From Gammaproteobacteria bacterium SG8_30 (lineage in GTDB: Bacteria; Pseudomonadota; Gammaproteobacteria; Steroidobacterales; Steroidobacteraceae): DNA of 64,000 bases. Location: positions 2,933-66,932 of the forward strand of contig LJNS01000002.1 in assembly GCA_001303245.1 (NCBI GenBank), given 5' to 3'. Both the position numbers and the translations under genes were made by a program. The notes under the pieces are model-generated. The model was given only the letters and a program-made list of their open reading frames with translations, was not told the origin of the DNA and did not search any database. This document shows positions 8,305 through 13,203 of this stretch, piece after piece (the first letter of the stretch is position 1; the number at the start of each line of letters is the position of its first letter).

Positions 8305-9918
8305 TCACTGCCCTTTCTTGTACTGGCGATACTCTTCCCAAAGCGCCTCGCGCAACTCCGGATCGGTCTCCTTCATCGCCGCCTCCCGGATCTGGCGTGC
8401 CACGATGTCGTCGTCGCTGCCATCCGGGATGTCCGGTGGAATGTTACGCGGACCCGAGCCGGTCGAGCCGATCGCCGTGCCCGACCCGCCGCCTTGCTGG
8501 GCGGCACCGCCCGCCTGGCCGTCGCCCTCGTCGCCGGCCCCTACGGACTCCAGGCCACCCCGCGAACCGGCTTCCGAGCCCGTCGCACCGTCGCCGTCCT
8601 GGCCGCGCTCCCGGTCTTCACCCGGTCCACCACCCGGCCCCTGCTGGTCCTCCGATTGCTGACCGGCACGTTCGCGAGCGATCTGTTCCTGGGTCGCCCG
8701 AACCGCAGCGTCGAACGCGCCGAACGTCTCCTCGAGGCGGCGGTCGATTGCCGCTCGCCGATCCTCGCCCCCCGGGACACTTGGCCCGGCGCCCACGCCG
8801 TCTCCGGCAGCCCCGGCTGGTCCGGCTGGTCCGGCCGATCCTGCCGACCCCGCCGTCGACCCCGCAACGGCACCCGAGGGTCCGCCGACGGATCCACTTG
8901 CTTGCCTACCCGCGCCGGAGCCCGGACTCCCAGCCCCGTCGGCCCCACCCCCCGAGGCGGTACTCCGTCCGGCCGGCCCGCCGCCCGCCGGTCCCGCGCC
9001 GCCAGGCGTGGAGCCTCCTCCCGCCGTGGCAGAAGTCCCGGCATCGCCGGCGCCCGCCTGCTCGCCCGGACCCTGACCGGCACTGCCGCCGCTCGAGGGA
9101 TCGGCGAACGGGTCGTCAGCACCCCGCCCGCTCGCGGCGGCGCCGCCGCCGGGCTCGGCGAAAGGATCAGTTTCTCCTTCCCCAGCGGAGCCACCGCCTG
9201 GCTCGGCAAAGGGATCGTTCTCTCCCGCGGCGGCGCCGTCCTCGGCGAACGGATCGTCTCCGGGTGCGCCTCCCTTCGCGAACGGATCCTCGCTACCGGG
9301 AGTTCCCGCCCCGCCGCCGCCGTCCTGCTGGGTCGCGTTCGGGCCGCTCCCGGCCTGCTGGTTGCCGGCAGCGCCCGCAGCACCTGCCTGGGCTCCCTGA
9401 GCAGCGGCTGAAGATCCGTCCGTCCCCGGCGTGCCGCCCGAAGTCTGCCCCGCCTGGCCGCCCGGCTGCGCGCCCTGCTGACCGGCGGTTTCCGCGCCGC
9501 CCGCAGTCGACCCTTGCGCCTCTGCCTGGGGAGCCCCGCCCGGCTGCTGGCCGCCCGCGCTGCCCTGCTGGCCCGGCGAAGAACTCGGGCTGCCGGCACT
9601 CTGGCCGCCGGTTGCGGTCGAGGAGGTCGGGCTCGGCTGCGGAATCGAGGCGGAACCACCGCCGCTGCTGGGGGAGGAGGACGGGAAACTGGACGATGGC
9701 CCGCCCCCGCTCGAGGGAGAGGAAGGCGAGGACGAGGGTGAACCCGAGGACGAAGGCGGCGATCCTGAACTGCCGCCGGACGGCGAGGAACTCGGCGGGC
9801 TGGGGGTGCCGCCGCTCGGGCTGGGCTGCGTCATCACGCTCTGCGACAGGCAGCCGGCGAGCAACAAGGCGGCCGAACCGGCCAGCAGTGCCCCGCGAAT
9901 GCGCGCCAAGCGGATCAT
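8305..9918 (-). CDS. low-complexity lipoprotein with DPFA repeats
   Basis: This 537-residue protein starts at an ATG behind GAGGAGAG. The signal peptide ends in the lipobox LLAGC (Cys 22). The mature part begins with about 75 residues of almost pure Ser/Pro/Gly, then Gly/Ala/Gln-rich sequence, then five DPFA repeats, then a collagen-like Gly-x-x stretch. The last 45 residues (VARQIREAAMKETDPELREA and onward) are the only part that looks folded, probably helical. Frame choice is supported by the signal peptide, the ribosome site and the ordered tail. The composition suggests a flexible tether from the outer membrane that carries short docking motifs. No function is known. Confidence 0.75.
   Translation of the reverse strand: MIRLARIRGALLAGSAALLLAGCLSQSVMTQPSPSGGTPSPPSSSPSGGSSGSPPSSSGSPSSSPSSPSSGGGPSSSFPSSSPSSGGGSASIPQPSPTSSTATGGQSAGSPSSSPGQQGSAGGQQPGGAPQAEAQGSTAGGAETAGQQGAQPGGQAGQTSGGTPGTDGSSAAAQGAQAGAAGAAGNQQAGSGPNATQQDGGGGAGTPGSEDPFAKGGAPGDDPFAEDGAAAGENDPFAEPGGGSAGEGETDPFAEPGGGAAASGRGADDPFADPSSGGSAGQGPGEQAGAGDAGTSATAGGGSTPGGAGPAGGGPAGRSTASGGGADGAGSPGSGAGRQASGSVGGPSGAVAGSTAGSAGSAGPAGPAGAAGDGVGAGPSVPGGEDRRAAIDRRLEETFGAFDAAVRATQEQIARERAGQQSEDQQGPGGGPGEDRERGQDGDGATGSEAGSRGGLESVGAGDEGDGQAGGAAQQGGGSGTAIGSTGSGPRNIPPDIPDGSDDDIVARQIREAAMKETDPELREALWEEYRQYKKGQ
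9088..9294 (-). repeat. five DPFA peptide repeats inside the lipoprotein gene
   Basis: Read on the minus strand, the motifs are EDPFAKGG, DDPFAEDG, NDPFAEPGGG, TDPFAEPGGG and DDPFADPSSGG. They are spaced 11-21 residues apart by Gly/Ala/Glu-rich linkers. The acidic residue before DPFA and the acidic or Pro residues after it are conserved, while the linkers vary. This is the pattern of repeated short linear motifs rather than of simple slippage. Confidence 0.8.
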
Positions 9919-10745: not shown

Positions 10746-10806
10746 GACGGGACTCCTCTCATAAGAAGTGCATCCCGGCGTGACCAGGATGCGACGCGAT
10801 GTCTCA

Positions 10807-10833
10807 AATATACGCGAGAAACGTGAGCGTCAA
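10807..10833 (-). promoter_or_regulatory. sigma-70-like promoter of the kinase/lipoprotein operon
   Basis: On the minus strand a -35 TTGACG (10828-10833) and a -10 TATATT (10807-10812) are separated by 15 bp. They lie about 60 bp upstream of the first gene, which has its own AGAGGAG ribosome site at 10753-10759. Both hexamers match consensus at five of six bases, but the spacer is short. No other promoter-like site was seen inside the eight-gene run. Confidence 0.45.
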
Positions 10834-10846
10834 GCCGCGATCCTGC

Positions 10847-11926
10847 TCACCACAGGGCGAGCTGTCCTCGGACGGTCCGCGGCGGGCGGAATCGGCTCGT
10901 ATCCAGCGGATCCTGCGCGCGGGCGACGAGCCCGTGCCGGCGACAGGCGGCCTCGAAGCGGCGTTCTAGCAACTCCGCCCAGGGACCCGTCCCCCGCATC
11001 CTCGTGCCGAAGCGCGGGTCGCTGTCCCGCCCGTCGCGCATTTCGCGAATTCGGCTGCGGACGCGAGCGGCCCGGTCCGGAAAGTGCGCAGCGAGCCACT
11101 CGTAGAAAAGGTCCTTCACCTCACGCGGCAGTCGCAGCAGCAGGTAACCGACCGAGTCCGCACCGGCCTTCGCCGCCTCCCCCACGATGCGTTCGAGCTC
11201 ATGGTCGTTGATGGCCGGGACGACCGGCGCGTACATGACCCCCGCGGGCACGCCCGCCTCCGTCAGCCTGCGGACCGCGGCGAGCCTCGCAGCGGGCGAA
11301 GCGGCGCGCGGCTCCATCCTGCGCTTGAGGTCGTCGTCCAGCGTCGTGACGCTCAGGAAAACGCGGGTCAGGCGTCTTCGCGCCAGCTCGCCGAGCAGGT
11401 CGAGGTCGCGCAGCAGCAGCGCCGACTTGGTGACGATCGACACGGGATGCTCGCACTCGAGCATCAACTCGAGGATCGAGCGGGTGACACGGTACTGCCG
11501 CTCGATGGGCTGATAGGGATCGGTATTGGTCCCGAGCGCGATCGTCTTGCACACGTAGCGCGGCCTCGACAGCTCCTCCTTCAGCCGCTCGGCCGCGTCC
11601 TGCTTGAAGAAGAGCCGCGTCTCGAAGTCGAGACCCGCCGACAGGTTGACATAAGCATGGGCGGGGCGGGCGAAGCAGTAGACGCAGCCGTGCTCGCAGC
11701 CGCGGTAGGGGTTGATCGACTGCTCGAATGGCACGTCCGGGGAGTCGTTGCACGTGATGACGCTGCGCGCGGGCTCGGGGAGCACCGTGGTCTCGAGAGG
11801 TGGAAGCGGCTCCTCGAGCACGCCCCAGCCGTCGTCCTCCCGTCGCGTCCGGGTCGACTCGAAGCGGCCTGCAGGATTGGACAGCGCGCCGCGCCCCGCG
11901 CGCTGTTCCCGGGAGTGCCGGAACAT
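10847..11926 (-). CDS. PA0069-family radical SAM protein
   Basis: This 359-residue protein carries the radical SAM cluster motif in YRGCEHGCVYCFARP (CxxxCxxC). It has the family's other landmarks: GALSNPAGRFE, NDSPDVPFEQSINPYRG, LGTNTDPYQPIE and VTKSALLLRDLDLL. The family is distantly related to spore photoproduct lyase, and a DNA-repair role is often suspected but unproven. The ATG at 11926 matches the conserved N-terminus. No Shine-Dalgarno sequence precedes it, because a LexA-type operator and the -10 element directly abut the start. That arrangement points to damage-inducible, nearly leaderless expression. Confidence 0.9.
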   Translation of the reverse strand: MFRHSREQRAGRGALSNPAGRFESTRTRREDDGWGVLEEPLPPLETTVLPEPARSVITCNDSPDVPFEQSINPYRGCEHGCVYCFARPAHAYVNLSAGLDFETRLFFKQDAAERLKEELSRPRYVCKTIALGTNTDPYQPIERQYRVTRSILELMLECEHPVSIVTKSALLLRDLDLLGELARRRLTRVFLSVTTLDDDLKRRMEPRAASPAARLAAVRRLTEAGVPAGVMYAPVVPAINDHELERIVGEAAKAGADSVGYLLLRLPREVKDLFYEWLAAHFPDRAARVRSRIREMRDGRDSDPRFGTRMRGTGPWAELLERRFEAACRRHGLVARAQDPLDTSRFRPPRTVRGQLALW

Positions 11927-11928
11927 GC

Positions 11929-11963
11929 CTGTATGTTTATACAGTTCACGAGGCCAGAGTCAA
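11929..11963 (-). promoter_or_regulatory. promoter with overlapping LexA (SOS) box for the radical SAM gene
   Basis: At 11929-11944 the sequence is CTGTATGTTTATACAG, an exact CTGT-N8-ACAG LexA-box pattern. Read on the minus strand it contains a -10 TATAAA (11936-11941), with a -35 TTGACT (11958-11963) 16 bp upstream. The operator therefore covers the -10, as expected for repression. The predicted transcription start lies only about 3-5 nt before the ATG at 11926, so the message would be almost leaderless. Confidence 0.75.
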
Positions 11964-11997: not shown

Positions 11998-13203
11998 TCA
12001 GCGGCGCTCGGGTGCCGGAAACCGGTCCATGCGCCGCAGCTGCGGAAACCACCGCGCCCACAGGCCGGCGATCGCCACGCTCGCGACGCCCCCCACCACC
12101 ACTGCCGGCCGCAGACCCCACCAGGCAGCGGTGACGCCCGACTCGAACTCTCCGAGCTCGTTCGACGCCCCGATGAACACGGCGCTGACCGCGCTCACCC
12201 TGCCGCGGATCGCGTCCGGCGTCTCGAGCTGCACGAGCATGTGACGTATGTACACGCTGACCATGTCCGCCGCGCCGAGGACGGCCAGCGCGCCGAGCGA
12301 CAACAGGAAGTTCTCCGACACGCCGAACACGACGGTCGCCACGCCGAAGGCCGCCACGCCCCAGAGCATCGCCGGCCCCACGCGCTCCGCGAGCGGTCGC
12401 CAGGCCAGCCACAAGGCCACGAGCGCGGCACCGACCCCTGGCGCCGCACGCAGCATCCCGAGACCGTCCGGTCCGACCTGCAGGATGTCGCTGGCATAGG
12501 CCGGAAGCAGCGCGGTAGCGCCACCGAACAGCACGGCGAACAGGTCGAGCGAGATGGCGCCCAGGATCACCTTGCGCCTGAATACGAAGCGCAGACCTTC
12601 GAGCAGGGAGTCGAAATTCACCGAGCCGGCTCCCCCCTCGGGCCGGGGCGCCCGCACGCCGAACATCAGCACGACGGCGAGCGCGAGCAGCACCGAGACC
12701 GTCCCGTAGACGACCTCCGCGCCGGCCAGGTACACGATGCCCCCGATCGCCGGACCGACGATGGTCGAGAGCTGCCAGGTCGTCGAGTTCACTGCGACGG
12801 CCCGGCCGAAGAGCGCTGGCGGCACCACGTTCGGCAGCAGCGCCTGGCCGGTCGGCATGGCGAAGGCCCGTGCGGCACCGAATATCACCATCACGGCGAA
12901 TACCGGCCACACGACCGACAGCCCCGCCAGGGAAAACGCGAGCAGCAACAAGGCGCACAGCAGCTCCGTCGCGTAGCACGCCGAGAGAACCTTCTGCCGC
13001 GTGTGCCGATCGGCGAAGTGTCCCGCGGGGAGCACCAGCAGGACGAAGGGTAGGAACTGCGACAGTCCGATCAGGCCGAGGTCGAGCGGATCCCGCGTGA
13101 TGTCGTAGACCTGCCAACCCACCGCGACGGTCTGCATCTGGACGGCGACCGACGTTGCAAGCCGCGCCGAGAGGAAGCGGGTAAAGCCCGAGTGCGCGAG
13201 CAA
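11998..13203 (-). CDS. MFS transporter (EntS/MFS_3-like exporter)
   Basis: This 401-residue membrane protein has about 12 hydrophobic segments. The N-terminus (FTRFLSARLATSVAVQMQTVAVGWQVYD) and the loop FADRHTRQKVLSAC after helix 2 are typical of the MFS_3 branch, which includes enterobactin exporter EntS and drug exporters. A second conserved stretch is FAMPTGQALLPNVVP. The substrate cannot be told. The TTG at 13203 is the only plausible start. The gene lies 58 bp downstream of asd on the same strand, so it may be co-transcribed. Confidence 0.88.
   Translation of the reverse strand: MLAHSGFTRFLSARLATSVAVQMQTVAVGWQVYDITRDPLDLGLIGLSQFLPFVLLVLPAGHFADRHTRQKVLSACYATELLCALLLLAFSLAGLSVVWPVFAVMVIFGAARAFAMPTGQALLPNVVPPALFGRAVAVNSTTWQLSTIVGPAIGGIVYLAGAEVVYGTVSVLLALAVVLMFGVRAPRPEGGAGSVNFDSLLEGLRFVFRRKVILGAISLDLFAVLFGGATALLPAYASDILQVGPDGLGMLRAAPGVGAALVALWLAWRPLAERVGPAMLWGVAAFGVATVVFGVSENFLLSLGALAVLGAADMVSVYIRHMLVQLETPDAIRGRVSAVSAVFIGASNELGEFESGVTAAWWGLRPAVVVGGVASVAIAGLWARWFPQLRRMDRFPAPERR

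Follow-up and report, generated by a model that had tools for sequence, protein, structure and literature searches.

What is a LexA box doing almost on top of the start codon of a radical SAM gene, and what kind of message and enzyme would it control? In the window, by which we mean the whole 64,000-nucleotide stretch of DNA that was analyzed, the palindrome CTGTATGTTTATACAG (CTGTATAAACATACAG on the gene strand; 11929..11944, annotated without strand) matches the LexA (SOS) pattern CTGTN8ACAG with 0 mismatches. A gap of 2 bp separates it from the ATG (11924..11926, minus strand) of a PA0069-family radical SAM gene (10847..11926, minus strand; 359 aa, assigned by NF033668 and Pfam Radical_SAM, with CX3CX2C at residues 77-84), and it spans the -10 of a TTGACT-N16-TATAAA promoter, an arrangement that an earlier note on this DNA had described and that is confirmed in the sequence. 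The reading we favor, and consider quite probable, is that a LexA-repressed, near-leaderless promoter drives this enzyme.

By its motif alone the box is not significant. It is the sole exact match in the window, for which the chance expectation is 0.28 and in which at least one match arose in 26 of 100 shuffles; genome-wide, 8 exact CTGTN8ACAG sites compare with 11 for the reversed control. With no excess over controls, motif counts in window and genome were dropped as evidence. The significance of box and promoter must therefore come from position and from relatives, and for the box it does lie in its position and conservation. There is a single LexA gene in the source assembly (2.8 Mb, 75% complete). 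CTGTATAAACAGCCAG precedes it, as does CTGTTCATCCATACAG at a distance of 8 bp from the ATG; this genome therefore uses the CTGTN8ACAG class. The concern, voiced with the earlier note, that the LexA might belong to a different motif class is settled by these sites in front of lexA itself. The accompanying suggestion that the motif be sought upstream of recA turned out otherwise: recA (L371) has no CTGTN8ACAG-like site at ≤2 mismatches within 300 bp.

In the closest relative (79% identity), CTGTATATTTATACAG is placed exactly 2 bp before the ATG. The box was present in 15/15 same-family orthologs examined, mostly exact and otherwise with ≤2 mismatches. Its distance to the start codon is 1-12 bp, most often 7 bp (8/15). 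Across the host's order, 35/67 orthologs have an exact box within 110 bp of an anchor near the gene start, compared with 0/67 in each of three farther-upstream windows (0/201) and 2 occurrences of the reversed pattern. SOS control, as the earlier note had proposed it, thus finds backing in a genomic lexA with the same motif and in a box conserved at the gene start through family and order; as a prediction, LexA control of the radical SAM gene is strongly supported and very likely. Such control is lineage-dependent, because in the same class outside the order the exact CTGTN8ACAG box occurs in only 7/83 orthologs, and class-wide control by this motif was dropped on the same count. Among Xanthomonadales orthologs, TTAGN6TACTA was found only in L080 and L113, and most are without a recognized box. 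Two Luteibacter loci (L029 and L043) bear the palindrome TGTACATTTGTACA just before and into the ATG, which presumably resembles the site of the xanthomonads' second LexA. In a set of boxless Xanthomonadales loci (L019, L030, L046, L050, L057 and L065), TGNGAC is shared and is followed at ~9-10 bp by a -10-like hexamer, whose end is ~6 nt away from the ATG.

The alphaproteobacterial orthologs are accompanied by their own LexA motif. GTTCN7GTTC is found within 230 bp in 48/57 of them, whereas the control windows gave 4/57 and then 0. A second, class-wide sample, composed mostly of one genome per family, has the motif in 26/30. Its position is narrowly set: 38-40 bp before the start codon in 32/48 of the first set, with the box start 37-42 bp before it in 20/26 of the second. 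The direct repeat runs in one orientation at the radical SAM genes (26:0) and mostly in the opposite one at lexA (1:23). Judging from the spacing, the TTGNTT core of the alphaproteobacterial box would fall at the -35 position, and the one-way orientation would be explained by such a placement. Where no LexA was detected, the box is generally missing too: in the family f181, the LexA DNA-binding domain was not found in 7/7 tested genomes (G283, G297, G309, G321, G331, G339 and G346; 2.2-3.1 Mb, 91-95% completeness), and the orthologs have no box at ≤1 mismatch, while a -10 (e.g., TATATT) is kept 6-9 nt before the start codon. The exception is G325 (87% complete), in which the box is present and LexA was not found. 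In an alphaproteobacterial genome without LexA, G758, the radical SAM gene (C3:15439-16481) is fragmented and contains stop codons, which gives it the look of a decaying gene. In alphaproteobacterial loci (L014-L089, including L016 and L024), a ribonuclease HII gene follows downstream on the same strand, its motif being present in some frame of 45/57 loci, often after a gap of 30-190 bp; sometimes a gene for a RAMA-domain N6 adenine DNA methylase comes next. SOS control in alphaproteobacteria may extend to rnhB.

Earlier publications describe SOS control of splB-type genes in several phyla. As passages of the source papers describe it, LexA regulates “splB” (COG1533 radical SAM) in alpha- and betaproteobacteria, and the argument was made for these two classes that SOS control is kept under different LexA motifs (PMC3323433); LexA-regulated splB-type genes are likewise described in Bacteroidetes (PMC8565304), in Gram-positives and Balneolaeota (PMC7739468) and, as a radical SAM gene, in Streptomyces (PMC9380542). 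The present gene resembles these in being an SPL-related radical SAM gene under a LexA box, with several motif classes represented, SPL standing for spore photoproduct lyase. The cited passage of PMC3323433 has the trait as not seen in Gammaproteobacteria, but the present gene shows it, in a class consistent with Gammaproteobacteria. Neither a leaderless layout nor missing catalytic residues, the two features taken up below, are mentioned in the passages on published splB genes.

The promoter is compact. On the minus strand, the order is TTGACT-N16-TATAAA-CATACAGGC-ATG: the -35 hexamer TTGACT (11958..11963, minus strand) is followed after a 16 nt spacer by the -10 hexamer TATAAA inside the LexA box (11936..11941, minus strand), and the ATG comes 9 nt after the -10. 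Together the two hexamers match the promoter consensus at 10/12 positions, one of only two matches of at least 10/12 on both strands of the 64 kb; it escapes a stricter scan in which the final base of the -10 has to be T. The other promoter-like match, TTGACG-N15-TATATT (10805-10833, minus strand), comes just after the radical SAM gene and before the next gene. The start codon is secure, because the open reading frame 10847-11926 begins at the first possible start past the preceding stop, with no earlier one available, and the family-conserved GRGALSNP motif begins at residue 11 of the protein. No Shine-Dalgarno precedes this ATG in the sequence, which upholds the earlier statement that no ribosome site exists. 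If the discriminator is 6 nt long, transcription is predicted to start 3 nt ahead of the ATG, for a predicted leader of ~3 nt. Upstream, a co-directional MFS transporter gene (11998..13203, minus strand; Pfam MFS_3/MFS_1) ends 71 bp away, and no terminator-like site was found between the two genes; read-through is possible. Elsewhere in the window, 8305-9918 on the minus strand encodes a 537-residue, Ser/Gly/Pro/Ala-rich, low-complexity lipoprotein-like frame.

Is this near absence of a leader peculiar to one gene? Leaderless genes of bacteria are recognized by a TANNNT ~12 bp upstream of the start codon; in the few alpha- and gammaproteobacterial genomes with detected leaderless genes, these account for only 4.5-6.3% of all genes (Zheng et al., 2011, PMC3160421). 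With start codons picked by a rule that differed slightly across the three gene sets and took no account of the -10, so that some may be wrong, and with related genomes that do not count as independent, exactly 6 nt separate TANNNT from the start codon in 14/30 alphaproteobacterial radical SAM genes versus 0/30 lexA and 0/29 recA genes of the same class sample, and in 10/15 radical SAM genes of the host's own family versus 0/30 lexA genes of its order. Shine-Dalgarno matches of at least 5 nt follow the reverse pattern in alphaproteobacteria: 2/30 for radical SAM genes, 11/30 for lexA and 18/29 for recA. The window's own gene departs slightly in distance, its TATAAA standing 9 nt, not 6, before the ATG, and is likewise without a Shine-Dalgarno. 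The box of the host's family covers the -10 and that of the alphaproteobacteria lies over the -35, so two geometries and two motifs share one fixed distance from -10 to ATG. The nearly leaderless message claimed in the earlier note is supported by this predicted geometry, and in relatives it is likely a recurring trait of the family. The genes of these relatives are like the TA-led genes of PMC3160421 in having TANNNT ~12 bp upstream of the start without a Shine-Dalgarno, and unlike them in that the enrichment concerns a single SOS gene family. In the literature searched, no report of a conserved leaderless layout of PA0069-family genes was found.

The enzyme itself belongs firmly to its family, matching NCBIfam NF033668 at 504 bits against a cut-off of 360, over positions 2-347 of 348, and Pfam Radical_SAM at 70.9 bits; by this curated model it is in the same family as PA0069 of Pseudomonas aeruginosa. 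A 2006 study by Cirz and colleagues reportedly placed PA0069 in the LexA regulon of that organism. The cluster-binding pattern is intact, with C77, C81 and C84 of CX3CX2C invariant in 30 sequences. A single-sequence search returned no solved relative, and a profile search for one returned only a weak partial match to SkfB. The AlphaFold model (pLDDT 76, weak in the cluster-loop region) retrieves SPL entries as its top Foldseek matches (TM 0.48-0.59), the best being 4fhc (TM 0.56-0.59), and a 91% profile match to SPL covers the C-terminal half. SPL is therefore the nearest solved fold, sharing CX3CX2C and the invariant Tyr83, which matches the SAM-binding Tyr of SPL.

The resemblance does not extend to the catalytic residues. 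The hydrogen-donor Cys of SPL (C141 in Bs, C140 in Gt) aligns to residue 133, which is T here and T/A/I/S/G across 30 sequences, with Cys in 0/30; hhalign covers only residues 161-238, and this placement comes from a MAFFT alignment and a shared TD motif. The relay Tyr (Y99 in Bs, Y98 in Gt) aligns to Phe85, the position being F in 20/30 and Y in 10/30. In SPL, C141A abolishes in vivo function, and Y97F/Y99F, which lacks both tyrosine hydroxyls, is inactive (PMC3742179). The Pfam SPL model (PF20903) scores 11.1 bits, below its cut-off of 27, and in one genome, G439, a PA0069 gene is found alongside an SPL homologue that has the Cys. Going by these residues, we conclude that the radical SAM enzyme is probably not an SPL by mechanism. 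The kinship with photoproduct lyases proposed in the earlier note accordingly survives at the level of fold, with 4fhc as best match, and fails at the catalytic residues and the Pfam SPL model; of its damage-inducible DNA-repair enzyme, the predicted SOS control stands, while repair, with the SPL residues missing, is a claim too far.

How would such a locus work? In the undamaged cell, LexA would sit on the box, over the -10 and the start of the message, and block RNA polymerase. Upon DNA damage, RecA-stimulated cleavage of LexA would free the promoter, and transcription would begin ~3 nt before the ATG, or at it. A ribosome could then initiate on the 5′-terminal AUG without Shine-Dalgarno contact. 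The enzyme produced would direct 5′-deoxyadenosyl radical chemistry at a damaged base, a nucleotide or a nucleic-acid-linked substrate. This last step is the weakest: a place in the DNA-damage response, through 5′-deoxyadenosyl radical chemistry by a mechanism other than that of SPL, is the likeliest role of the enzyme, and we put it forward tentatively.

Other explanations of the control region account for parts of these data. Were the palindrome a chance match at a gene outside SOS control, the counts would cause no difficulty, an exact site being expected in about a quarter of windows of this size and exact sites not being enriched genome-wide; but a coincidence of this kind is highly improbable given the positional conservation in family and order against clean controls, the different LexA motif that alphaproteobacteria have at the same gene, and the lack of the box in LexA-less relatives. 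The shared strand, the 71 bp gap and the missing terminator-like site would also allow expression mainly by read-through from the MFS gene, with a long leader and a box that modulates only part of expression. Such a message would have no ribosome site to serve it, the gap itself holds a 10/12 promoter that is one of two in 64 kb, and the promoter layout is common to family members, so that this route seems improbable as the main one. A further question is whether the short leader was selected at all, or arose as a by-product when a LexA box was fitted onto the promoter. As a by-product would predict, boxes also precede the start codon by 7-11 bp at lexA genes of the order, but these genes show TANNNT-N6 in 0/30 and keep their Shine-Dalgarno matches; moreover, the boxless f181 genes retain the short distance from -10 to ATG, and the alphaproteobacterial boxes, over the -35 and thus in another geometry, go with that same distance. 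We regard the by-product explanation as unlikely.

A different kind of challenge concerns the product. The published “splB” reading would make the gene an SPL or a close functional equivalent, induced in the SOS response for direct reversal of the UV dithymine lesion, and it can draw on 4fhc as the best solved structure, on the C-terminal profile match, on Tyr83 and on the name given to such genes in passages of several papers. Against it stand a residue 133 that is never Cys in 30 sequences, a Phe at the relay Tyr99 position in 20 of 30, this protein included, the loss of function that C141A and Y97F/Y99F cause in SPL (PMC3742179), the subthreshold Pfam SPL score, and the coexistence in G439 of a PA0069 gene with a Cys-bearing SPL homologue; we give this identification little credence. 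The LexA-repressed, near-leaderless promoter in front of a PA0069-family enzyme thus remains the reading we prefer.

Many genome papers use the name splB and ascribe photoproduct repair to the gene, a label that, by the residue test, probably misleads for a widely SOS-controlled enzyme. A broader proposal, which we advance as speculative, is that PA0069-family genes represent an SOS unit of ancient origin that has stayed leaderless throughout Proteobacteria because its message can then still be translated while damage or stress impairs the usual route of initiation. On this view, LexA boxes of one class or another would have been placed around a promoter in which the -10 keeps a set distance to the start codon, and the enzyme would have a lesion chemistry unlike that of SPL. 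The recurrence of the layout in many distant relatives suggests an old, overlooked part of the bacterial damage response, and the conserved leaderless arrangement offers a direct way to ask, with ordinary reporters, whether a damage-response message is translated specially.
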